The position numbers and the translations under genes are program-made. The notes beneath the pieces are model-generated. The model had not been told where the DNA came from. It saw only the letters and a list, made by a program, of their open reading frames with translations, and made no database searches. Source: Rhodovibrio salinarum DSM 9154 (GTDB lineage Bacteria; Pseudomonadota; Alphaproteobacteria; Kiloniellales; Rhodovibrionaceae). Taken from it: a DNA stretch of 64,000 nt. The stretch is from assembly GCF_000515255.1 (NCBI RefSeq), contig NZ_KI911559.1, positions 2,739,660 to 2,803,659 on the forward strand. The letters are read 5' to 3'. Shown one piece after another: positions 52,908 through 64,000 of the stretch. Positions within the stretch are counted from its first letter, which is position 1. Every line of letters begins with the position of its first letter.

Positions 52908-53774
52908 TTATTCTTCGGATTCGTCTTTATTGAGCCAAGCCTCCAATTCTCGAATGTCAATTGCAAGATTGCGTTCCTCTTTGGTACCGCCCTTGTGAAT
53001 GACACCAATCACCGCACCATCGCCATCAACCAGTGGTCCACCGGACATACCGTCAGCGAGTGATTGCGTTACCTCGATAAGCTGGACATCGACAAAGCCA
53101 GGAATCTGTACTTGGTCTAAACTCCTGGCGATTGTCGCTGTTACATGGCCAGTTCTGACGTTAATTTTCTCCCCATACCACCAAGTGGGGTAACCTAACG
53201 CGATTACCTCTTGACGAATATCAATTTCATATGAATTAAAAACTAACTCGTAATACTCTGCATCAGGAATTGTGTTCTCAAGTAGCGCCAAATCTCGATA
53301 CTTATGACGTCTGATAACTTTGGCTTGGAAGATATTTGTCGGATTCGATGGGTGAAAAATTTTGACCATGTCCGTTTTTTCGACACAATGCGCCGCCGTC
53401 ACTAGACCAATATCCTTGAGAAAAAAGGCGGTTCCCTGGTGCTGAGTGTCTTCATTCTCAATGACCCATATCGCCCGATCCCAAATCTGTCTTTGCGTTG
53501 GACTAACCTTAATCGGCCAATCCGGAAAACAACGATTGAAGCGGACAGCTAAACCCCGCACAACAGGATCCGACGACCCCTTAACTTGAGCGACAAACGA
53601 GATCTTTCCACGGAGGTGCTGAGCGAGACTTGATCGTCCGCCATACTCCTCGTGATACTTTTTTTCCGCGCTCTCTATCCCAAGTTTTTCTACAGAGAAT
53701 AGCGCCGCTCGAATATTCCGTATGTACCGACGATCAACATTCAAAATCTCGTTAATCTTGATGCCGGTCACCAC
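52908..53774 (-). CDS. Retron RT C-terminal (VTG/thumb) region fused to trypsin-like serine protease (downstream part of a frameshifted gene)
   Basis: The frame is open from 53930; the GTG at 53774 is only its first possible start codon. Translation between 53930 and 53774 continues the RT: FSSELLAQRLRNEI, QNGFFVNEEKIHYAD, DSRRVVTGIKINEIL, the retron-specific VTG motif, then the thumb NVDRRYIRNIRAALFSVEK. From about residue 95 of the annotated part a trypsin-fold protease follows with a full triad: His129 (GLVTAAHCVE), Asp161 (KYRDLALLENT) and Ser244 (DGMSGGPLVDGDGAVIGV). There is no signal peptide, so the protease would act in the cytoplasm, presumably as the retron's effector. Base composition is lower in GC than the core genome. 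Confidence 0.85.
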   Translation of the reverse strand: MVTGIKINEILNVDRRYIRNIRAALFSVEKLGIESAEKKYHEEYGGRSSLAQHLRGKISFVAQVKGSSDPVVRGLAVRFNRCFPDWPIKVSPTQRQIWDRAIWVIENEDTQHQGTAFFLKDIGLVTAAHCVEKTDMVKIFHPSNPTNIFQAKVIRRHKYRDLALLENTIPDAEYYELVFNSYEIDIRQEVIALGYPTWWYGEKINVRTGHVTATIARSLDQVQIPGFVDVQLIEVTQSLADGMSGGPLVDGDGAVIGVIHKGGTKEERNLAIDIRELEAWLNKDESEE

Positions 53775-53860
53775 ACGCCGTGAATCTCGGTCTGCGTAAT
53801 GAATTTTTTCTTCGTTAACGAAAAACCCGTTCTGAATGATCTCATTCCGTAGTCTCTGCG

Positions 53861-54514
53861 CTAGAAGTTCCGACGAGAAGCGCCCGGCTGGTGGGAGGAC
53901 GGTCTCGAAAAGGGCTGCGGGGGGTGATGGCTAGAGAACGTTATGTCGTCCGCATATCGGGTATAAATGCAGCGGGCTTCTTTAGCGAAGGTCATGAGGC
54001 TCTTGTCGAGCCTGAAGCAGATCATGTTCGACAGCACTGGGCTGCTCGGGGCGCCTTGTGGAAGACGCCCCTTGTTGCAGCATACGATGCCGATGATTTT
54101 AGCGACTTTAGAGTTCAGCCCCAACGAAGACAGCATACCCTCAATGCGTGTCTGAGAGATAGTCGGGAAGAAGTCCTTTAAATCGATATTGACCACGTAC
54201 TTACACCGCTTGTGGGCCAATGCATTTGTCTTAACGGATCGTTCGGCGACAAAGCCGTGAACTGGATTACGGCGGCGGTAAATCTCATTCAGCTTTTTTG
54301 CAATTTTGCGTTGGAGAAATTTTAGTCTCTCATCGGGAGCGTTGATGATTCGATTTTTGCGCCCCGCACGGCCAATAGAAAAGTTGTGGTACATACGCGC
54401 TCGGTAGTACCGGATTTTCTTCAATTCATCGGCGCCGAGATTCAGATAAGCGAGGAGCGCCGCTTCGTCAGCGAGTTCGGGAGGAATTACAATGCGAATA
54501 TTCTTGCCAAACAT
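53861..54514 (-). CDS. Retron-type reverse transcriptase, upstream part of a frameshifted RT-protease gene
   Basis: The 217-residue frame contains RT domains 1-5: IINAPDERLKFLQRKIAKKL, region X with the retron hallmark NAxxH (Asn97-His101, KTNALAHKR), NIDLKDFFPTISQTR (catalytic Asp), GRLPQGAPSSPVLSNMI and YTRYADDITFS (catalytic YADD, 187-190). After residue 197 the frame runs into an unrelated Pro/Ser-rich end and stops, while the true continuation lies one base back in the frame of the protease entry. Repairing one C in the run at 53919-53924 gives a single 535-residue protein spanning 52908-54514. Retron RTs make msDNA from a partner RNA and act in anti-phage defence. Confidence 0.92.
   Translation of the reverse strand: MFGKNIRIVIPPELADEAALLAYLNLGADELKKIRYYRARMYHNFSIGRAGRKNRIINAPDERLKFLQRKIAKKLNEIYRRRNPVHGFVAERSVKTNALAHKRCKYVVNIDLKDFFPTISQTRIEGMLSSLGLNSKVAKIIGIVCCNKGRLPQGAPSSPVLSNMICFRLDKSLMTFAKEARCIYTRYADDITFSSHHPPQPFSRPSSHQPGASRRNF
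53919..53924 (-). other. Six-C homopolymer at the RT-protease frame junction
   Basis: On the minus strand the frame reads CAC CCC CCG, giving C-CCC-CCG, which has the form of a -1 slippery heptamer. One added C, or a -1 ribosomal slip here, joins the RT frame to the VTG/protease frame with no stop between. It may be a true mutation, a programmed shift or a sequencing error; the sequence alone cannot tell. Confidence 0.75.
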
Positions 54515-56139: not shown

Positions 56140-57555
56140 ATGCTCGGCCTGGATCTGGATTTGCACCGCCGGGTGCGCATCGGCGTCACCGGCCTCAATA
56201 CCGCGGGCAAGACCGTCTTCCTGACGTCCTTGGTGCATGCGCTTCGCCATCGCGGCGCCATCGCGAACGTCTCGGCCATCCGGGACGGCCGACTGAAGGG
56301 GGTCGAGGTGATGCCGCTCGACGCCTCCGACGGGGTCGCCGCCTTCCCCTACCAGGCGAACGCCGACGCGATTACCGGCGCGGACGGGGGCGCCCCACGC
56401 TGGCCCGAGAGCACGGACCGGATCTCCAAGATCGTGCTGGCCGTCCGGTACACCCCGACCAACGCGCTCACCCGGCAACTGGGCGACCGGCAGCTTCGGA
56501 TCGAACTGGTCGATTACCCGGGCGAATGGCTCCTGGACGTCCTGCTCGCCCGGTCCGACTACGACACCTGGTCCCAAGCGCTCCTGGGCGAGATGCAGAC
56601 GACCGGCGACAGCCCGGAAGCGCGCGCCTACCTCGACTTCGTCAATCAGACGAATGCGACCACGCGCCAGGACCTGGACCATTGGGCCGGCACGGCGGCG
56701 CGGCTGTTCAAGCAATACGTCGAGGCCCGACGCGACGCCACCGGCCGGGCCAACCGCCTGCATCCCGGGCGGCTGCTGTTGCCCGGCCCCGGGATGGACC
56801 CCGACATGCCGAGCCTGACCTTCGCGCCCCTGCCGCCGGCGGGCCGTGACGCCGTCAACGGCGTCCTCCAGGCGATCCCGTTCGTGCGCGAGTTCGGCGG
56901 ACGCACCCTGCGCCAGGTGATGGCCGAACGCTTCGACACCTACCGGCGCCGGATCGTCCAGCCGTTCTTCGACCAAACGTTTGCCAAGCTCGATCGGCAG
57001 GTCGTGCTGGTGGACCTGTTGGGCCATCTCGCCCGCGACGGCATCGGCATGCCGATGCTCGACGACGAGCTGGGCGACCTGCAGGAGTCCATGCGCCTCG
57101 GGCGTGGCTGGCTGCCGCGACAGATCCGGCCGAGCGTGGAGAAGGTCCTCTACGCCAGTACGAAAGCCGACCTGGTGCCAAGCGACCAGCACGACGTGCT
57201 GCTCGAACGGATGCGCGCGGCCGTTGGCCAGAGCCACGAAGCCGCGCGCTTCCGTGGCGCCGAAACCCGGGTGATGACGCTGGCCGCCCTCGCCGCGACG
57301 CGCGAAGTCACGGCCCAGGACCGCCCGGGGCGACGTTACGTCGCCGGCCTGCAGACCGACGGCAACGCCTATATGCACGATCCAGGCGACCTCGCGAACG
57401 CGCCGATGGACGGGACTCGCACGCCGGATCAGTCGCAGGCCCTGTTCGCCCTCGAACGCTTCCTGCCCCCCAAGGGACTCGGCCGGCGCGATGCCTGGCC
57501 GCACAAGCGCCTCGACCGCGCCATCGAGTTCCTGCTTGGAGACGATCTGGCATGA
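56140..57555 (+). CDS. ycjX: YcjX family P-loop protein
   Basis: The 471-residue DUF463 protein has a Walker A motif GLNTAGKT (residues 18-25) and the family segments LVDYPGEWLLDV, LRQVMAERFDTYRRRIVQPF and VLVDLLGHLARDG. In E. coli ycjX and ycjF are stress-induced neighbours; their exact role is unsettled, though YcjX is a GTP-binding, dynamin-like protein in structural work. The stop overlaps ycjF by four bases (ATGA). Confidence 0.9.
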   Translation: MLGLDLDLHRRVRIGVTGLNTAGKTVFLTSLVHALRHRGAIANVSAIRDGRLKGVEVMPLDASDGVAAFPYQANADAITGADGGAPRWPESTDRISKIVLAVRYTPTNALTRQLGDRQLRIELVDYPGEWLLDVLLARSDYDTWSQALLGEMQTTGDSPEARAYLDFVNQTNATTRQDLDHWAGTAARLFKQYVEARRDATGRANRLHPGRLLLPGPGMDPDMPSLTFAPLPPAGRDAVNGVLQAIPFVREFGGRTLRQVMAERFDTYRRRIVQPFFDQTFAKLDRQVVLVDLLGHLARDGIGMPMLDDELGDLQESMRLGRGWLPRQIRPSVEKVLYASTKADLVPSDQHDVLLERMRAAVGQSHEAARFRGAETRVMTLAALAATREVTAQDRPGRRYVAGLQTDGNAYMHDPGDLANAPMDGTRTPDQSQALFALERFLPPKGLGRRDAWPHKRLDRAIEFLLGDDLA

Positions 57556-58586
57556 CGCACAGGCCCCCGCGCCCGGACACCCGGCGGCTGGACCAGGCTG
57601 CAACGCCGTCCCCCGCGCCCGCGCGGCCCGACACGCGCCCGGCCGACGCGGGCATGCCGGCGACCGCGTCGGCCGGCGCGCCAAACGCGCCGTCGCCGCG
57701 TCGGGGCAAATTGATCTGGCCTCGGGTATGTGTCGCCGGGCTCGGATTGCTCGGAGTCGCCGTTGCGGGTGCCTATGTACAGGAAGCCGTGGCGACCGTG
57801 ATGAACCCGACCGACTGGGCGGGCTGGCTCGTCACCGGCGGGGTCGGGCTGGTGATCGCCGGTCTGGTCCTCGGCTGCGTCGGCGAGCTGCGCGGGTTCC
57901 GCGACCTGCGTCGGCTCGACCGCCTGAACGACCGCGCGCGGCAGGTCCGCGAAGACGCGGTGGCCGACGATCCCTCACTGATCCGGGATCTGACGGCCGT
58001 CTACGCCTCCCGACCCGACCTGGACGGCAAGCTGCGGACATTCCGCCGCGACGCGGAGGGCATCGGGGATGCCGCGAACCAGCTCGCCGCGTTCGAGATC
58101 CATGTGCTGGCCAACCTCGACGAGCGGGCGCAGTTGGCGATCACACGTGCCGTACGGCGGAACGCGACGGCAACGGCGTTGAGCCCGTTCGCCCTCCTGG
58201 ACGCGAGTGTGACGGCCTGGACAAGCCTCCGGATGATCCGCGAGGTCGCCACCCTGTACGGCGCCCGTCCCCGGGTTGCCGCGTCGCTCCGCCTGACGCG
58301 CACCGCCTTCGGCAATGTGCTGGCCGCCGGCCTGTTCGAGACGGTTCAGGACGCGGTCAACGATCTGGTTAGCGGGGGCGTTGCCGGACGGGTCTCGACC
58401 TCGATGGCGAGTGCGATCGCCAACGGGTTGCTGACAGCGCGTCTGGGGCTGGCGGCGATGGAAGCGTGCCGCCCGGTGCCAACCTCGACGTCCAGGCGGA
58501 CGAGCGCGCGGTCCCTGGTCCGGCGCGCACTTTCCGACGTGATCGGCGGTCATCGCCCGCAGAACCAGCCTGACGAGGAGGCGTAG
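57552..58586 (+). CDS. ycjF: YcjF / TIGR01620 family membrane protein
   Basis: A 344-residue protein with a Pro/Ala-rich N-terminal 55 residues, two membrane segments (about 57-80 and 92-113, GWLVTGGVGLVIAGLVLGCV) and a C-terminal DUF697 domain (about 190-330) with two more hydrophobic stretches. It is the usual partner of YcjX and is translationally coupled to it. It converges with the radical SAM operon (43-base gap). Confidence 0.87.
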   Translation: MTHRPPRPDTRRLDQAATPSPAPARPDTRPADAGMPATASAGAPNAPSPRRGKLIWPRVCVAGLGLLGVAVAGAYVQEAVATVMNPTDWAGWLVTGGVGLVIAGLVLGCVGELRGFRDLRRLDRLNDRARQVREDAVADDPSLIRDLTAVYASRPDLDGKLRTFRRDAEGIGDAANQLAAFEIHVLANLDERAQLAITRAVRRNATATALSPFALLDASVTAWTSLRMIREVATLYGARPRVAASLRLTRTAFGNVLAAGLFETVQDAVNDLVSGGVAGRVSTSMASAIANGLLTARLGLAAMEACRPVPTSTSRRTSARSLVRRALSDVIGGHRPQNQPDEEA

Positions 58587-58628
58587 TCCAGACTGACCTG
58601 CTGGAGATCGACGCGGCGGCGGAACCGG

Positions 58629-59588
58629 CTAGGCTACCGACCAGGTCTCGTTCGCGTGCAGCAGCAGATCGGGTTGGTCCGCGCAGCGGTGGATGAAATC
58701 CGCCACTTGCGGGCTGCGCCAGGCCCGTTGGTAACTGCCCCAGGCTTCGAGCACGCTTTGCTGGCGCAGGTCGCCGGGGGCGAACGGCAAGGCGTTCAAG
58801 AGCTTCACCCGACCGTTCGGGACGATCAGCATCATCGCCTGCGGGCTGTCCAGCCGGTCGGCGATTTCCTGCTCGATGTCGTGGGGATAGATCGATAGGC
58901 GGGTCGGCGCGTTCCGATGAAGCGCCGCCCGCATCCGAAGCTCGGTAACCGCCTCGGCCCAGGCTTCCGGATCGGGCATCAGCGTGGACCAGGACGCCGC
59001 CGCGCGGCCGAGGCGCATCAACGGACCGGTGACGAACGCGCTGCAGCCAAGCTCGACGGCCAGGTCGAACGCGTCCGCCATCTCAGCCAGATTGTGGGTG
59101 GTCGGCGTGAATACCATCTCCGCGGGCACGCCGCAGTCACTCAACCGGCGCAGCGCGCCGGTCGCCTGCTCGAAGCTGGCGGAACCGGGACGCATCAGCG
59201 CGTGCGTCTCCGGCCGGGCGCCATCGACCGAGATCTGAGCGTTATCGACCCGCAGCCCCGCCATCCGGGTCGCGGCCGCCGCGTCGACGTAACGCCCATC
59301 GGTTTCGATCTTGATCGCCGTGCCGGCCTCGGAAAGCGTCTCGAAGATCTCCCAGACGTGCGGCACGCCGAGCGGCTCGCCACCGCCAAAGGCGACGTAG
59401 GGGATGCCGGCCTCGGTGATCTGCCGGGCGACGTCCAGCGCCTCCTCGCGGGTCAGTTCGTCCGACCAGCCCTTGTCCGGCCCGGACTCCTCGCAACAGG
59501 AAGGACAACGACCGGCACAGCTATTGGTCAGCTGCCAGGCGATAAACAAAGGGGCGCTAAAGTCCTCGACGGCGGCACCGGGACGCAT
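58629..59588 (-). CDS. Radical SAM protein A of a RiPP cluster
   Basis: The 319-residue enzyme has the 4Fe-4S/SAM motif CAGRCPSC (Cys24, Cys28, Cys31), followed by a PqqE-like barrel: YVAFGGGEPLGVPHVWEI, IKIETDGRYVDAAAA and NAQISVDGARPETHALM. The C-terminal part (PNGRVKLLNALPFAPGDLRQ) aligns with a SPASM start but has no Cys ligands, so an auxiliary cluster is unlikely. I use the ATG at 59588; the longer TTG-started frame begins inside the upstream terminator. It is the last gene of the operon, directly after the precursor peptide gene and its hairpin, and is a paralogue of the two other radical SAM proteins here. Confidence 0.9.
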   Translation of the reverse strand: MRPGAAVEDFSAPLFIAWQLTNSCAGRCPSCCEESGPDKGWSDELTREEALDVARQITEAGIPYVAFGGGEPLGVPHVWEIFETLSEAGTAIKIETDGRYVDAAAATRMAGLRVDNAQISVDGARPETHALMRPGSASFEQATGALRRLSDCGVPAEMVFTPTTHNLAEMADAFDLAVELGCSAFVTGPLMRLGRAAASWSTLMPDPEAWAEAVTELRMRAALHRNAPTRLSIYPHDIEQEIADRLDSPQAMMLIVPNGRVKLLNALPFAPGDLRQQSVLEAWGSYQRAWRSPQVADFIHRCADQPDLLLHANETWSVA

Positions 59589-59642
59589 CGAAACAACTCG
59601 ACTTTGGCTAATGGGCGAAAATGGAACAGGCGGCAAGAAAGG

Positions 59643-59671
59643 CCGGGGCCGGTCGGCAGGACCGGCCCCGG
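59643..59671 (-). terminator. Terminator or attenuator between the precursor peptide and radical SAM gene A
   Basis: A perfect 12-bp GC-rich stem (59643-59654 with 59660-59671) and 5-base loop is followed on the minus strand by CCTTTCTT. It begins 8 bases past the precursor stop. Read-through would be needed to reach radical SAM gene A, so it should make the peptide far more abundant than that enzyme, a common RiPP arrangement. Confidence 0.8.
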
Positions 59672-59678
59672 ACCCGGC

Positions 59679-59822
59679 TTAGGTGAAGCGGATGTACGGC
59701 TGTGCCATAACCTGCTCGGAGACGTCTTCCATCTCCGGCGTCTCCCAGGCCGTCTTCTCCTGCACGGCCGCCGACCGCTCCTCCTGACGCGCTTCGCGCG
59801 TCTCGGTCACGCTCTCGCTCAT
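59679..59822 (-). CDS. PqqA-like RiPP precursor peptide, 47 residues
   Basis: The small frame begins MSESVTETREARQEERSAAV, a charged leader, and ends with a core-like region containing Trp26 (TAWETPEMEDVSEQ) and the C-terminus VMAQPYIRFT. The W-x-x-P-x-M-x-D-V pattern followed by a Tyr near the end recalls PqqA (W-x-K-P-x-F-x-D-L ... E-x-x-x-Y), though here Glu36 and Tyr43 are seven apart, not four. A perfect AAGGAGGTGA Shine-Dalgarno precedes the ATG, the strongest in the window. It lies between two radical SAM genes and shares the operon with a PqqD-like protein. It is too short for routine gene calling; precursor function is inferred from context. Confidence 0.8.
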   Translation of the reverse strand: MSESVTETREARQEERSAAVQEKTAWETPEMEDVSEQVMAQPYIRFT

Positions 59823-59825
59823 ACG

Positions 59826-59835
59826 TCACCTCCTT
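59826..59835 (-). promoter_or_regulatory. Full-match Shine-Dalgarno of the precursor peptide
   Basis: AAGGAGGTGA, fully complementary to the 3' end of 16S rRNA, ends three bases before the ATG region at 59822. It decides the peptide start and predicts high translation. Confidence 0.85.
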
Positions 59836-59844
59836 TCTTACTGC

Positions 59845-60822
59845 TCAGGCGGTGGATTCCGCCAGCTCCTGCCAGGCATTGGCCTGGGCGTGCCGGGCGC
59901 CGTCGGCGATTGCCGCCTCGATGGCCTCCCGGAGCGCCGATGTATGCCAGGCCTGGCAGTAGGATCGCCAAGCTTGCGCCAGGCCGTCCCGACGCACGTC
60001 GGCAACGATGTAGGGCAGCGCCGCCGACGCCTTGACCCGGCCGTCGGGCAACACGAGCAGGGTCGCCGGCGGTTCGGCCGCCGTCTGACGCAGCCCGTCC
60101 TCCATGCGGAACGGCAGGTAGGCCAGTTCCATGCCCGCCTCGCCGCTTTCGGCCTCCCGATCCAGAACCGCCCGGAAGGCGTCGTACTGCTCAGCCGTGG
60201 GAACCAGCTTGCGCCAGTTGCGCGCGGCATTGCCGATCCGCATCAGCGCGCCGGTATTGAACCGGAAAGCCCCCAATTGCCGTGCCCGCCGGAGCGCCGC
60301 GGGCAGCTCCGTGATCGTAACGCGGGTTGGCGCGAAAGTGACCTCCAGCGGCAGGCCGGCCGCACGCACCGCCCGGCAGGCTGCGTGCACCTTCTCCAGC
60401 GACGCGCCCGGACGCTGCCGGGCGTAGGTGGTCGGGTCGTCCGCATCCAGACTGATCTGCACGCTGCGTACCGGCAACTCGGCCAACTGCACGGCCTCCG
60501 CCGGACCGAAGCGCTGCCCGTTGGTCTCGATTTTCAGCTGCACGCCGCCCCGGCCCAGCCGCTCGGCAACCTCCAAAAAGTGCGGCACGACCATCGGCTC
60601 GCCGCCGCACAGCATGGCGTAGGGCACGCCCGCCGCGACGATCTCGTCGGCAAACGCCAGCGCCTCGGCGCGCGACAGTTCGTTCGCCATCGGCTTGCCA
60701 GGGGCACTTTCCGTGCAGCAGTGCACGCACGCCAGATCGCAGTCCCGGGTCAGCTGCCAGGAGACGAACAGCGGTGCGCCCAGTCGATCGATCTGGTGGG
60801 CGCCAGTCGCGCTTGCTGTCAT
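59845..60822 (-). CDS. Radical SAM protein B of a RiPP cluster
   Basis: The 325-residue protein has CDLACVHC (Cys28, Cys32, Cys35) and the same architecture as its two paralogues: YAMLCGGEPMVVPHFLEV, LKIETNGQRFGPAEA, SVQISLDADDPTTYA, and a SPASM-like tail LPDGRVKASAALPYIVADVR with no Cys. The ATG at 60822 follows GGGAGG; the frame extends upstream into the prenyltransferase gene but with no related sequence. It starts 11 bases after that gene and ends 22 bases before the precursor start. It probably modifies the precursor peptide. Confidence 0.9.
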   Translation of the reverse strand: MTASATGAHQIDRLGAPLFVSWQLTRDCDLACVHCCTESAPGKPMANELSRAEALAFADEIVAAGVPYAMLCGGEPMVVPHFLEVAERLGRGGVQLKIETNGQRFGPAEAVQLAELPVRSVQISLDADDPTTYARQRPGASLEKVHAACRAVRAAGLPLEVTFAPTRVTITELPAALRRARQLGAFRFNTGALMRIGNAARNWRKLVPTAEQYDAFRAVLDREAESGEAGMELAYLPFRMEDGLRQTAAEPPATLLVLPDGRVKASAALPYIVADVRRDGLAQAWRSYCQAWHTSALREAIEAAIADGARHAQANAWQELAESTA

Positions 60823-60833
60823 TGCGCCCTCCC

Positions 60834-61778
60834 CTATCCAGCCAGCCAAGGCTGGCTCAGCAGCCCAAGGGTGAACAGCACGGTGGTGACGAGGTAGCAG
60901 CGCACGATCGCGCGTACCGCCGGGAGGAAGGCCCGTGGCGTCTGCCAAGTGGTGCGGGCGCACTGCAGACTGCGCCAGAGCAGCGGCGCAGCGGCGAGTG
61001 CCGCCAGCGTCGGCCAGGGGAAAACGCCACCGGCCACCCCAACGACCACGACCGCGAGCGCCAGCGCCGCCAGGCCGTTGTACAGCCAGACCGCGCGCGC
61101 CCGGCCCAGGCGTACGACCAGATTGCGCTTGCCGACCAGGCGGTCCTGATGAAAGTCGGGGATCGCGTTGGTGACGGCGAGCGCCATGATCAGGAAACCG
61201 GGCACCAGCGCGGCGAGCAACGCCGGCCCGATCACGTCCGCATCAAACCTCTGGACCTGCAGATGCAGGCTGCCCAATACCATCAGCGGACCGTACGACA
61301 GCGCGATCACGGTCTCGCCCAGGCCGAGGTAGGCGAAGCGGATCGGCGGCGCGACGTAGAAGGCAGCCGCCATTCCGCCCAGACCGGCGTACAGCAGGAT
61401 CGGCCAGCCGGTCAGCCAGGTCAGGTACAGCCCGACTGCCAGCGCGCCAGCGAAGGCGGCAACGCCCAGCCACAACACCGCGGACGACATCGGCGGCGTG
61501 TCCTCGGGATCGAACACGCGGTCGGTGCCCATGCGGCTGTCGAAGTACTCGTTGAACGCCTCGACGCCGACCACCGAGAGCACGATCCCGCCCAGGCCGA
61601 TCCAGAACAGCGTGCCATCGAACGTGCCCAGCATCGCCCAGGCCCAGGCCGCGCCCAGCAGGTAGGGCAGCAAGCCGGCGTAGAGGAAAAAGCGGTAACG
61701 CACGAGGCTGGCGAGCCGGCCCAGCAAGATCACCAGGCTGGACGGACGTGGCGCATAGGTCTGAACGTGCTCGCTCAC
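60834..61778 (-). CDS. UbiA-superfamily prenyltransferase, MenA-like
   Basis: The 314-residue polytopic protein has about eight to nine membrane helices and both Asp-rich motifs of the superfamily: NEYFDSRMGTD (N-x3-D-x3-D type, about residues 76-86) and NAIPDFHQDRLVGKRNLVVR (D-x3-D, about 205-224). The motif forms resemble MenA (DHNA polyprenyltransferase) more than UbiA. These enzymes attach a polyprenyl chain to an aromatic acceptor in the membrane. It sits inside the RiPP operon, 24 bases after radical SAM gene C and 11 before B, so the acceptor may be the peptide-derived product; a housekeeping menaquinone role is the alternative. Confidence 0.88.
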   Translation of the reverse strand: MSEHVQTYAPRPSSLVILLGRLASLVRYRFFLYAGLLPYLLGAAWAWAMLGTFDGTLFWIGLGGIVLSVVGVEAFNEYFDSRMGTDRVFDPEDTPPMSSAVLWLGVAAFAGALAVGLYLTWLTGWPILLYAGLGGMAAAFYVAPPIRFAYLGLGETVIALSYGPLMVLGSLHLQVQRFDADVIGPALLAALVPGFLIMALAVTNAIPDFHQDRLVGKRNLVVRLGRARAVWLYNGLAALALAVVVVGVAGGVFPWPTLAALAAAPLLWRSLQCARTTWQTPRAFLPAVRAIVRCYLVTTVLFTLGLLSQPWLAG

Positions 61779-61802
61779 GGCCCTACCCCGCTCACTGGCG
61801 CG

Positions 61803-62822
61803 TTAGACATAGATCCAACGGTGCAGCTCGGCCGTCTTGGTCGAATCCTGCTCCAGTTCGGTCACGAAGTCCGCGACACGCGGGTCCTGCCAGGCGCGCT
61901 GGAAGTTCGACCAAACCTGCGCCAGCGATTCGGTACGCAGGTCGCCACAGATGAACGGCAGCGCATTGATCAGCTTGACCAGACCGTTGGGTAGCACGAT
62001 CAGCAGCGCCGCCGGGTTCTCCAGCCGCTCGCGCATCTCCTGACGCAGGCCAAGCTCGTGATAGTGCACACGCATCCGGCCGATATACTCGAGCCGCTTC
62101 AGGTAGAGCGTGTTGAAATAGTGCATGTACTGGTCCTCGTTCGGGACCAGCTTTTGCCACGTCTTCACCGCGTTGCCGGTGTACATCGTCCGGCCGGTGT
62201 AGAAGTTCTGCGCGCCCAATTCATGCGCAAGGTCGACGGCGCGGGCGATCTCGTGGGTATTGAACTTGGTCGGCGAGTAGTTGATCTCCAGCGGCACGCC
62301 CGCTTCGACCAGATTGCGGATGCCCTGCATCACCTGGTCGAAATCGCCGCGCACGCGCATCTTGTTGAAGGTCTCGCGGCTGGCGCCATCCATCGAGACC
62401 TGCACAGACTTCACGTCGAGTTCCTTGAGCCGCTGACAAGCTTCCTTGGTCAGATACTGGCCGTTGGTCTCGATCTTGAGCTGGGCACCCCGGCCGGCGG
62501 CATACTCGACCAGATCGAAGAAGCGTGGATGCACCATCGGCTCGCCGCCGGACAGCGAGATATAGGGCACATCGAGATCGATCGCCTGGCGCAGCACGTC
62601 GAACGCCTGCGCGTCGCTCAACTCGTCCTTGAAGGCACGCCCCGGACCGCTCTCCTCAATGCAGTGCAGGCACGCAAAATTACACTCGTTGGTCAGCTGC
62701 CAAGCGAGATAGAGCGGTGCGCCGAGCGCCCCCGAGGTGGTCGTCCCCGGGGTCGCGGGCTGAGGACGCACACCGACGTCTTGGGCGTGACCGACACCCC
62801 CATCACCTTCGAACCCATCCAT
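61803..62822 (-). CDS. Radical SAM protein C of a RiPP cluster
   Basis: The 339-residue protein carries CNFACLHC (Cys47, Cys51, Cys54) and the PqqE-like core YISLSGGEPMVHPRFFDL, LKIETNGQYLTKEACQ, SVQVSMDGASRETFNKM and GVPLEINYSPTKFN. The tail LPNGLVKLINALPFICGDLR keeps one Cys of a SPASM domain; the others are missing. Of the three paralogues it is the closest to a standard radical SAM/SPASM enzyme. It starts 5 bases after the PqqD-like gene, which should deliver the peptide to it. Confidence 0.92.
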   Translation of the reverse strand: MDGFEGDGGVGHAQDVGVRPQPATPGTTTSGALGAPLYLAWQLTNECNFACLHCIEESGPGRAFKDELSDAQAFDVLRQAIDLDVPYISLSGGEPMVHPRFFDLVEYAAGRGAQLKIETNGQYLTKEACQRLKELDVKSVQVSMDGASRETFNKMRVRGDFDQVMQGIRNLVEAGVPLEINYSPTKFNTHEIARAVDLAHELGAQNFYTGRTMYTGNAVKTWQKLVPNEDQYMHYFNTLYLKRLEYIGRMRVHYHELGLRQEMRERLENPAALLIVLPNGLVKLINALPFICGDLRTESLAQVWSNFQRAWQDPRVADFVTELEQDSTKTAELHRWIYV

Positions 62823-62827
62823 GACGC

Positions 62828-63085
62828 CTAGTCCTCAACTATCAGACCGCGCTCACGCAGTTGCTGCGCGAAGACCATCGCCTCGCGGTCGATCCGCGCC
62901 GCCTCGTCAGCATCATAGGAGGCTTTCAGACGTGCCGGAATCTGGTCCTCTGGGGTGCCAGCCTGGATCTCGCGCACGACGGCGGCCGCGGTTGGATTCA
63001 GGGCGTAGACCTTCTCCGACCGGGTTTCGAACAAAACCCCACCGAACTTTTCCTGCCGGAATTTGACGTATTTCGCCAGTTGCAT
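62828..63085 (-). CDS. PqqD/MftB-like peptide-binding (RRE) protein
   Basis: The 85-residue protein (MQLAKYVKFRQEKFGGVLFE) has the PqqD winged-helix pattern: a beta hairpin FGGVLFETRSEKVYALNPTA, then AAAVVREIQAG and a C-terminal helical part ending LRERGLIVED. Such proteins bind the leader of the precursor and present it to the radical SAM enzyme. I start at the ATG at 63085, which matches family length; a frame to 63136 adds an unrelated leader. It is the first gene of the operon. Confidence 0.88.
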   Translation of the reverse strand: MQLAKYVKFRQEKFGGVLFETRSEKVYALNPTAAAVVREIQAGTPEDQIPARLKASYDADEAARIDREAMVFAQQLRERGLIVED

Positions 63086-63432
63086 GCCTACACCATCACA
63101 TCTCAGGATACACGTAGCGGGCAAAGGGTCCCGCAAGCGTTGCCAGGTGTCAACGAAAAATTACACATCTAGTGTCCAGATTCCTTGACACTGAGTTGCC
63201 ACAAGTAAACCGACCTCTAGGGCATCCCCTTATCGCGCATTGCGCGGCCCGGTATACGCCACTGCAAGCCGCACCGGCAGGGGAATTTTGCCGTGAGGGG
63301 TCCGTTGCGCTGCGCACCCATGCTATGGGGATGGCAACTCGTTCGACACCCGACTCGATCGACCAGCGGTATACGTGATGATGCGCATGTCCGCGAGACC
63401 ATCTGACCCCATTTGACCGCGTCCCCTGTCCT
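63086..63432. other. Divergent intergenic region between the RiPP operon and the FecCD permease
   Basis: The 347-base gap must hold the RiPP operon promoter (minus strand) and that of the transporter (plus strand). An inverted repeat AGTGTC-N10-GACACT lies at 63171-63192 and could be an operator. I saw no clear Fur box or -35/-10 pair. Confidence 0.5.
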
Positions 63433-64000
63433 TTGACGAAAACCGCCGAAACAGATTCAGGCTTGGTCCGCTACCGTGCCCAGGTCAAACGCCACGCCGT
63501 CGTCCTGATCGCGCTCGCGGGGGCGTCGGCCTTGGCGTTCGTGACCGATGTCGCGACCGGACCATCCAATATGAATCCCTTGGATGTCGTCCGTGCGATC
63601 CTCGCGCCCGATTCGGTGGCGCGGACCGTCCAGGTCATCGTCTGGGACGTGCGCCTGCCTTATGCCGTCATGGCCCTGCTGGTCGGGGGTGCGCTCTCGC
63701 TCGCCGGCGCGGAGATGCAAACGATCCTGGACAACCCGCTCGCCAGCCCCTTCACCCTCGGCGTCTCCTCGGCCGCCTCCTTCGGGGCGGCGGTCGCCAT
63801 CGTGCTGGGTCTGGGCCTGCCGGGCGTCGCCGATGATTGGATCATCTCCGGCAACGCCTTCGTGTTCGCTTTCGGCTCGGTGCTTCTGCTGCAGGCGCTG
63901 GCGCAGGCGCGCGGCAGTGGGGTGCAGACCCTGATCCTGTTCGGCATCGCCTTGGTGTTCACCTTCAACGCCCTGGTCGCGCTGCTGCAGTTCGTCGCCA
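63433..64000 (+). CDS. FecCD-family ABC transporter permease, 3' end outside window
   Basis: The frame is open from 63382 to the window end. I take the TTG at 63433 as start because a membrane segment (VVLIALAGASALAFVTDV) begins soon after; an ATG at 63571 would remove it. The family signature LPYAVMALLVGGALSLAGAE, then NPLASPFTLGVSSAASFGAA, marks a BtuC/FecD/FhuB-type permease that imports iron siderophores, heme or cobalamin with a periplasmic binding protein and an ATPase. These partners would lie to the right. About 189 residues are visible. Confidence 0.88.
   Translation, partial: MTKTAETDSGLVRYRAQVKRHAVVLIALAGASALAFVTDVATGPSNMNPLDVVRAILAPDSVARTVQVIVWDVRLPYAVMALLVGGALSLAGAEMQTILDNPLASPFTLGVSSAASFGAAVAIVLGLGLPGVADDWIISGNAFVFAFGSVLLLQALAQARGSGVQTLILFGIALVFTFNALVALLQFVA

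Follow-up and report, generated by a model that had tools for sequence, protein, structure and literature searches.

The question raised by this locus is whether a 47-codon frame lying among radical SAM genes encodes the precursor of a peptide-derived product and, if so, what kind of product this might be. PQQ and mycofactocin are small redox cofactors that bacteria make from ribosomal peptides, and an earlier note had proposed a new precursor peptide at positions 59679-59822 of the window, the 64,000-nucleotide stretch of Rhodovibrio salinarum DSM 9154 DNA analysed here. We recovered this frame and assigned it to the minus strand (59822 to 59679), the note having given no strand. The encoded peptide of 47 amino acids starts with MSESV and ends with PYIRFT, and the residues that had been singled out (W26, P29, E36, Y43, and F46) were all correct. 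The claimed Shine-Dalgarno sequence, AAAGGAGGTG, stands directly upstream of the peptide ATG (59827-59836, minus strand), radical SAM genes flank the peptide on either side as described, and the announced hairpin does follow it on the same strand (59671-59643), with 12 pairs and a loop of 5.

To find relatives, 84,980 species genomes were scanned with radical SAM 2, one of the flanking enzymes, using exact peptide patterns, which reach close relatives only. The scan gave 42 pattern matches and five loci, from Rhodovibrio sodomensis (L014), Rhodothalassium salexigens (L015), a MAG labelled Kiloniellales (L016), and two MAGs labelled Rhodovibrionaceae (L017 and L018). The three MAG loci appear identical to G036:C210, G013:C54, and G012:C84, respectively, and the total including the window is six loci. 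The peptide lies between radical SAM 2 and radical SAM 3 in all six, and the complete set of six genes occurs in the same order in the five loci that are long enough, the contig of L017 beginning inside radical SAM 1. R. sodomensis was the nearest named relative, at 82-87% over five proteins and 79% for the peptide.

In GC-rich DNA an isolated frame of 47 codons would mean little, and it is the conservation that indicates a real frame. Among the six sequences, of which L017 and L018 come from close MAGs, the peptide is 47 or 51 residues long, 18 of its last 22 residues are invariant while the leader varies, and the last 11 residues (QVMAQPYIRFT) are identical throughout, with codons changing silently. 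For the last 22 codons, the 15 pairwise comparisons gave a pS of 0.49 and a pN of 0.054 (ratio 0.11). The leader, compared in two pairs only, looks unconstrained between the window and L014 (pN 0.15, pS 0.06) and constrained between L017 and L018 (pN 0.07, pS 0.41). The earlier note had named relatives that keep the enzymes and have lost or decayed the small frame as evidence against a precursor; all six loci carry the conserved frame. A random frame was thus ruled out by the conservation of the peptide, its occurrence in the same slot in six of six loci, and the pN/pS of 0.11, and the frame is a genuine gene. It has the layout of a RiPP precursor, being short, with a variable leader and a conserved core, and lying beside modifying enzymes in every locus.

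Searched against NCBIfam and Pfam, the peptide matched no family at E up to 1, and this result, together with its presence beside the enzymes in all six loci, supports the proposal of a new precursor, distinct from PqqA, on which radical SAM enzymes act. Alignment showed that W26, Y43, and the last five residues, which had been put forward as possibly invariant, are so in six of six loci, as are P29 and F46; E36, put forward with them, is D in L017 and L018. Because of this replacement in two relatives, a PqqA-type Glu-Tyr crosslink is unlikely, and the alignment suggests that E36 is unlikely to be a fixed crosslink partner of the Tyr. Of the idea that the product differs from that of PqqA, the new precursor therefore stands, and a Glu-Tyr crosslink at another spacing is unlikely. 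The PqqA-like W-x-x-P region holds up in that W26 and P29 are invariant, but, given the PqqD-type partner, W26-x-x-P29 more probably belongs to the leader, as a binding site for the chaperone, than to the product. We accordingly divide the peptide into a leader (residues 1 to about 25), a recognition-like stretch WETPxME (26-32), and the invariant tail Q37-T47.

The motif AAAGGA(G/C) precedes the peptide ATG in six of six loci, and a stable fold follows the stop codon in all of them. The 80 bases past the stop fold better than shuffled sequences in each locus (z of -2.58, -2.60, -3.42, -3.36, -4.52, and -3.16), with 0 to 2 of 200 shuffles per locus folding as well. The stem sequences differ between genera; those of L017 and L018 are partly common, and L014 has one long imperfect stem. 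A scan for terminator-type sites over 58400-63600, carried out on the window copy only, returned one site, the hairpin itself, against a mean of 2.8 in shuffles, which by this measure is not remarkable. The hairpin is a probable attenuator or RNA-stabilising stem.

In the window, the order of transcription is PqqD-type protein, radical SAM 1, UbiA/MenA-like prenyltransferase, radical SAM 2, peptide, hairpin, and radical SAM 3. The intergenic gaps in this order are 5, 24, about 11, 22, and 90 bases; the hairpin lies within the 90-base gap, and the gap of about 11 uses the ATG at 60822 as the start of radical SAM 2, a start two codons earlier giving 5. Given the short gaps and the shared strand, the six genes read as one operon. 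Of these, a third radical SAM gene, the PqqD-like gene, and the MenA-like prenyltransferase gene go unmentioned in the earlier note. A simple sigma-70 scan found no promoter. A YcjX-like (DUF463) and DUF697/TIGR01620 gene pair on the plus strand (56140-58586) converges on the cassette. Upstream of it are genes for a FecCD permease, a periplasmic binding protein, and a TonB receptor (L050 1093-6412, starting near window position 63433 and extending past the window end), which have no counterpart in the relatives' flanks among the matches listed. Further away, at 52908-54514 on the minus strand, we noted a trypsin-like protease and a reverse transcriptase resembling that of type XI retrons. Their separate frames (53861-54514 and 52908-53774) each correspond to one half of PADLOC RT-Protease_XI, a single gene in that model and split here.

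The cassette is rare. The peptide was found in one of 3 genomes from the family and one of 385 from the class, and radical SAM 1 at E <= 1e-50 in one of 385 genomes from the class and one of 398 from the phylum, the match in each case being the window's own genome; radical SAM 2 was found in 4 of 61 order genomes, the window's genome among them. The cassette nevertheless occurs in two named orders, Rhodothalassiales and Rhodospirillales. Among the matches listed, only the six genes are common to Rhodovibrio and the other genera, which fits transfer of a self-contained unit, and the cassette may well have spread in this way. A downstream frame is common to the three MAGs. A mobile or plasmid element was also considered and rejected: radical SAM 1 had no plasmid match at E <= 1e-30, and radical SAM 2 had no relative in viral contigs (14 pattern matches, none related).

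The three radical SAM genes all lie on the minus strand, and their products exceed the PF04055 cut-off. Radical SAM 1 (61803-62822) scores 90.0 bits, radical SAM 2 (59845-60822) 70.4 bits, and radical SAM 3 (58629-59588) 79.1 bits. The frame of radical SAM 2 extends to 60963, its probable start being the ATG at 60822, and the start of radical SAM 3 was placed provisionally at the Met that opens the conserved region. The proteins are paralogs, radical SAM 2 and 3 being 36-38% identical to radical SAM 1. In the radical SAM tree they form three ortholog groups with 100/99 support each, indicating that the triplet was together before the host lineages parted. Of the 17 radical SAM sequences available, 14 were examined, and every one of them keeps the CxxxCxxC motif intact. 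None of these 14 has the SPASM CxxC-x5-C auxiliary-cluster motif, and the only cysteines invariant in their alignment are the three of the radical SAM motif. MftC was the best NCBIfam model for all three window proteins, far below its cut-off (101.8, 91.4, and 135.3 against 265 bits), and the PqqE model gave 64, 61.4, and 92.2 bits against 381.35, so that none belongs to the PqqE equivalog.

The predicted structure of radical SAM 1 has a mean pLDDT of 82.9. Its closest fold was SkfB (Z 28.0, rmsd 2.9, 278 residues aligned, 26% identity), followed, within 1 Z of each other, by PqqE (Z 24.6, rmsd 2.8, 254 residues aligned), SuiB (24.5), and viperin-like proteins (up to 23.8). Since the viperin-like match nearly equals that to PqqE, the fold alone does not prove a peptide maturase. 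The alignment to SkfB covers residues 25 to 335 and thus runs through the C-terminal domain, which in the model seems to keep a SPASM-like fold with the cluster ligands gone. Three radical SAM enzymes with a SPASM-like domain and without its cysteine motif should be useful for asking what the clusters do.

The two remaining proteins of the cassette are a putative chaperone and a membrane enzyme. The first, a PqqD-type peptide chaperone or RiPP recognition element (62828-63085, minus strand), scores 46.7 bits with PF05402 against a cut-off of 23.4, and its start was placed at the Met at 63085 by comparison with relatives. A homolog is present in all five loci that reach this region, and its N-terminal part is almost invariant among the five sequences. 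A discrete RRE/PqqD domain is thus encoded alongside the precursor. The second is a UbiA-family, MenA-like membrane prenyltransferase (60834-61778, minus strand; PF01040 68.5 bits, cut-off 34.2). Its two Asp-rich motifs, N76xxxD80 and D208xxxD212, are intact, and N76, D80, D208, and D212 are invariant across eight aligned proteins, as expected of a UbiA domain. The protein scores best on MenA models and stays under their cut-offs (70.8 against 102.15 for TIGR00751 and 101.2 against 264 for NF004751), so that it falls outside the MenA equivalog. It is 26-29% identical to three MenA-like proteins encoded elsewhere in the genomes of the window (G000) and of Rhodothalassium (G800). By a profile that includes these three non-cassette proteins, the best solved relative was UBIAD1 (8djk).

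Taken together, these parts suggest a pathway to which we give about even chances: the peptide would give rise to a new cofactor-like RiPP, its tail being modified by the three enzymes and then prenylated to a membrane-soluble, probably redox-active product. The stand-alone PqqD-type protein would grip the leader, probably at W-E-T-P-x-M-E, and present the tail QVMAQPYIRFT in turn to the three paralogous radical SAM enzymes. Each of these would carry out SAM-radical chemistry around Tyr43, Arg45, Phe46, or Thr47, for instance oxidation, decarboxylation, or the formation of C-C crosslinks; we propose no auxiliary clusters for this chemistry because the SPASM cysteine motif is missing. Three-residue cyclophane chemistry is one idea for Tyr-Ile-Arg. 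A host protease would then release the modified piece, and the MenA-like membrane enzyme would prenylate the aromatic ring formed in this way with an isoprenoid chain. The product would be soluble in the membrane, probably of the quinone type, and would remain in the cell. Through the hairpin that follows its gene, the peptide might be made in larger amounts than the downstream enzyme. No peptidase, oxidoreductase, or methyltransferase gene is found among the six cassette genes, and the proposed pathway therefore needs other genes. The operon, the tail, and the motifs are observed to be conserved or intact, and it is from them that we infer the order of the steps, the chemistry, the prenylation, and the redox role. 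If the prenylated product proves true, the logic of cofactors from ribosomal peptides would extend to lipid-soluble carriers.

The PQQ and mycofactocin pathways are not known to include a membrane prenyltransferase. The prenylation step can also be read in another way. The substrate of the enzyme could be an ordinary quinone precursor, with some other reason for its place in the operon. The RiPP would in that case be a soluble cofactor or signal, and the MenA-like enzyme would serve a quinone step of its own that happens to be co-expressed. We consider this rather unlikely, though it deserves weight, since the PQQ/mycofactocin-like layout of PqqD protein, radical SAM enzymes, and invariant tail works without prenylation, and the UbiA-like gene does score as MenA-like. 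Against it, the prenyltransferase gene is located between radical SAM 1 and 2 in six of six loci, separated from them in the window by 24 and about 11 bases. The cassette enzyme is, moreover, the only protein that P0005 retrieves at E <= 0.001 in three of the five cassette genomes (G012, G036, and G013).

A second alternative is that the cassette makes a secreted peptide natural product, an antibiotic or a signal, which the UbiA-like enzyme lipidates. Radical SAM RiPPs are often antimicrobials, and the closest fold to radical SAM 1 is that of SkfB, the maturase of the sporulation killing factor. However, the six cassette genes include none for a transporter, immunity, or a leader peptidase, and the tail stays the same in two orders, as opposed to the fast-changing cores of bacteriocins, a pattern described in the accessible text of PMC3023750. 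In that same text, Haft proposed mycofactocin as a cofactor and not a bacteriocin, noting no transporter, no immunity gene, and an invariant C-terminus. An invariant tail without a transporter or immunity gene likewise fits the cofactor pattern here rather than that of a bacteriocin, and we regard a secreted product as highly unlikely.

The prenylated, cofactor-like product that we favour raises the further question of whether it is related to the menaquinone of the host. MK-10 has been reported for Rhodovibrio salinarum, whereas the other six strains in the table of Rhodovibrionaceae are given with Q-10, one of them also with Q-9, in the accessible part of PMC11316597; the parts available of PMC7179689 and PMC10963914 also give MK-10 for Rhodovibrio. 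We searched for the markers MqnA/D, MenD, MenB, and MqnC, leaving out MenC, MenE, MenF, MenH, MqnB, and MqnE, in five cassette genomes, namely those of the window, Rhodothalassium, and the three MAGs G012, G013, and G036, with R. sodomensis left out. MqnA/D matched in none of the five, while 4 of 14 control genomes pass. MenD and MenB likewise exceeded their curated cut-offs in none of the five, with 7 of 14 controls passing for each, and gave weaker matches in all five, as for general family members. MqnC was over its curated cut-off in none of the five and in 2 of 14 controls; its one weaker match, in G036 (322.1 against 428.1), lies in an 854-residue frame that is probably an FO synthase.

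With these markers missing or below cut-off in the cassette genomes and MK-10 reported for Rhodovibrio, the cassette becomes a candidate source of the quinone head group. In its most far-reaching form, the idea takes the cassette to be the first pathway to a lipoquinone that begins with a ribosomal peptide, supplying the head group of the MK-10 or of an MK-like quinone of Rhodovibrio; the three radical SAM enzymes would cleave the tail and rearrange it into an aromatic acceptor, which the MenA-like enzyme would prenylate. We hold this to be quite unlikely. The stricter version, in which the naphthoquinone head group of MK-10 itself is built from the peptide and the cassette constitutes a third, ribosomal menaquinone route, we judge most improbable. 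It draws on the occurrence of MK-10 in R. salinarum and in none of the other six strains of the table (accessible part of PMC11316597), on the MenA-like enzyme in the cassette, and on the four markers of the known routes being missing or below cut-off in five of five cassette genomes, of which three, however, are MAGs. The window's genome also has a true MenA elsewhere (C1:1769267-1770133, within L054 740-1849 = C1:1769039-1770148; 327.6 bits against 264), and another MenA-like protein there narrowly misses the cut-off (96.8 against 102.15), so MK-10 need not use the cassette enzyme. That MenA is the only one above the TIGR00751 cut-off among 61 order genomes, 7 of which match at E <= 1e-10, and it rules out the idea that the cassette enzyme is the only MenA of Rhodovibrio and must on that account make MK-10. 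Dihydroxynaphthoate could, in addition, be derived from the medium, and we know of no simple chemistry leading from the peptide tail to a naphthalene.

Rhodothalassium is listed with MK-10. The accessible part of its genome paper does not mention this quinone. Its MenA-like protein is well under the cut-off (62.5), and the corresponding gene (C6:82290) has weak matches to MenD (C6:70811) and MenB (C6:90163) no more than about 12 kb away, a proximity that also counts against a ribosomal menaquinone route. Read by eye, the genes around these two matches look like genes for amino acid synthesis and for fatty acids, and no men cluster was seen around the non-cassette MenA-type genes of either the window's genome or Rhodothalassium. 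The below-cut-off MenA-like gene of Rhodothalassium also adjoins a gene for a NapC/TorC-type cytochrome (L052 91-2160, G800:C6). Given that the men/mqn markers searched were not found, the cassette makes it testable how Rhodovibrio obtains its MK-10.

The cassette can be set against four kinds of known system. With mycofactocin (MftA, MftB, and MftC) it shares a short peptide with a conserved C-terminal end, a PqqD-like partner, and a radical SAM enzyme. The mycofactocin precursor ends in Cys-Gly-Val-Tyr according to the accessible text of PMC3023750, whereas the cassette peptide has no CGVY end and finishes in PYIRFT in all six loci. The cassette further differs in having three radical SAM genes, a prenyltransferase, and no SPASM cysteine motif; its radical SAM proteins score 91 to 135 bits against 265 for MftC, and the MftB model gives 21.2 against 33.

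PqqA carries a W-x-x-P motif in a leader-like stretch, and its Glu and Tyr are spaced by four. The cassette resembles the PQQ system (PqqA, PqqD, and PqqE) in its own leader-like W-x-x-P stretch, its separate PqqD-type chaperone, and a PqqE-like fold (Z 24.6). Unlike in PQQ, Glu36 of the cassette peptide is seven residues from the Tyr and is not conserved, no PqqA match is found, and the SPASM cysteine motif is absent; a relative of PqqA was ruled out by the lack of a model match at E up to 1 and by the unconserved E36. SkfB and other SPASM/twitch RiPP maturases are closest to radical SAM 1 both by solved fold and by sequence profile, but they differ from the cassette enzymes, which lack the CxxC-x5-C motif. 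Compared with MenA and UBIAD1, the cassette prenyltransferase keeps both Asp-rich motifs and an LVVRLG-type stretch, yet it falls under every MenA cut-off shown and is encoded in a RiPP operon. In the literature that could be accessed, where coverage of preprints is poor, no RiPP with a UbiA protein, no peptide-derived quinone, and no further menaquinone route was found. The cassette stands out by its prenyltransferase and by the absence of the SPASM cysteine motif. Judged by its gene content, the cassette would be a radical SAM RiPP system with a PqqD-type chaperone, in a variant that appears not to have been described previously.
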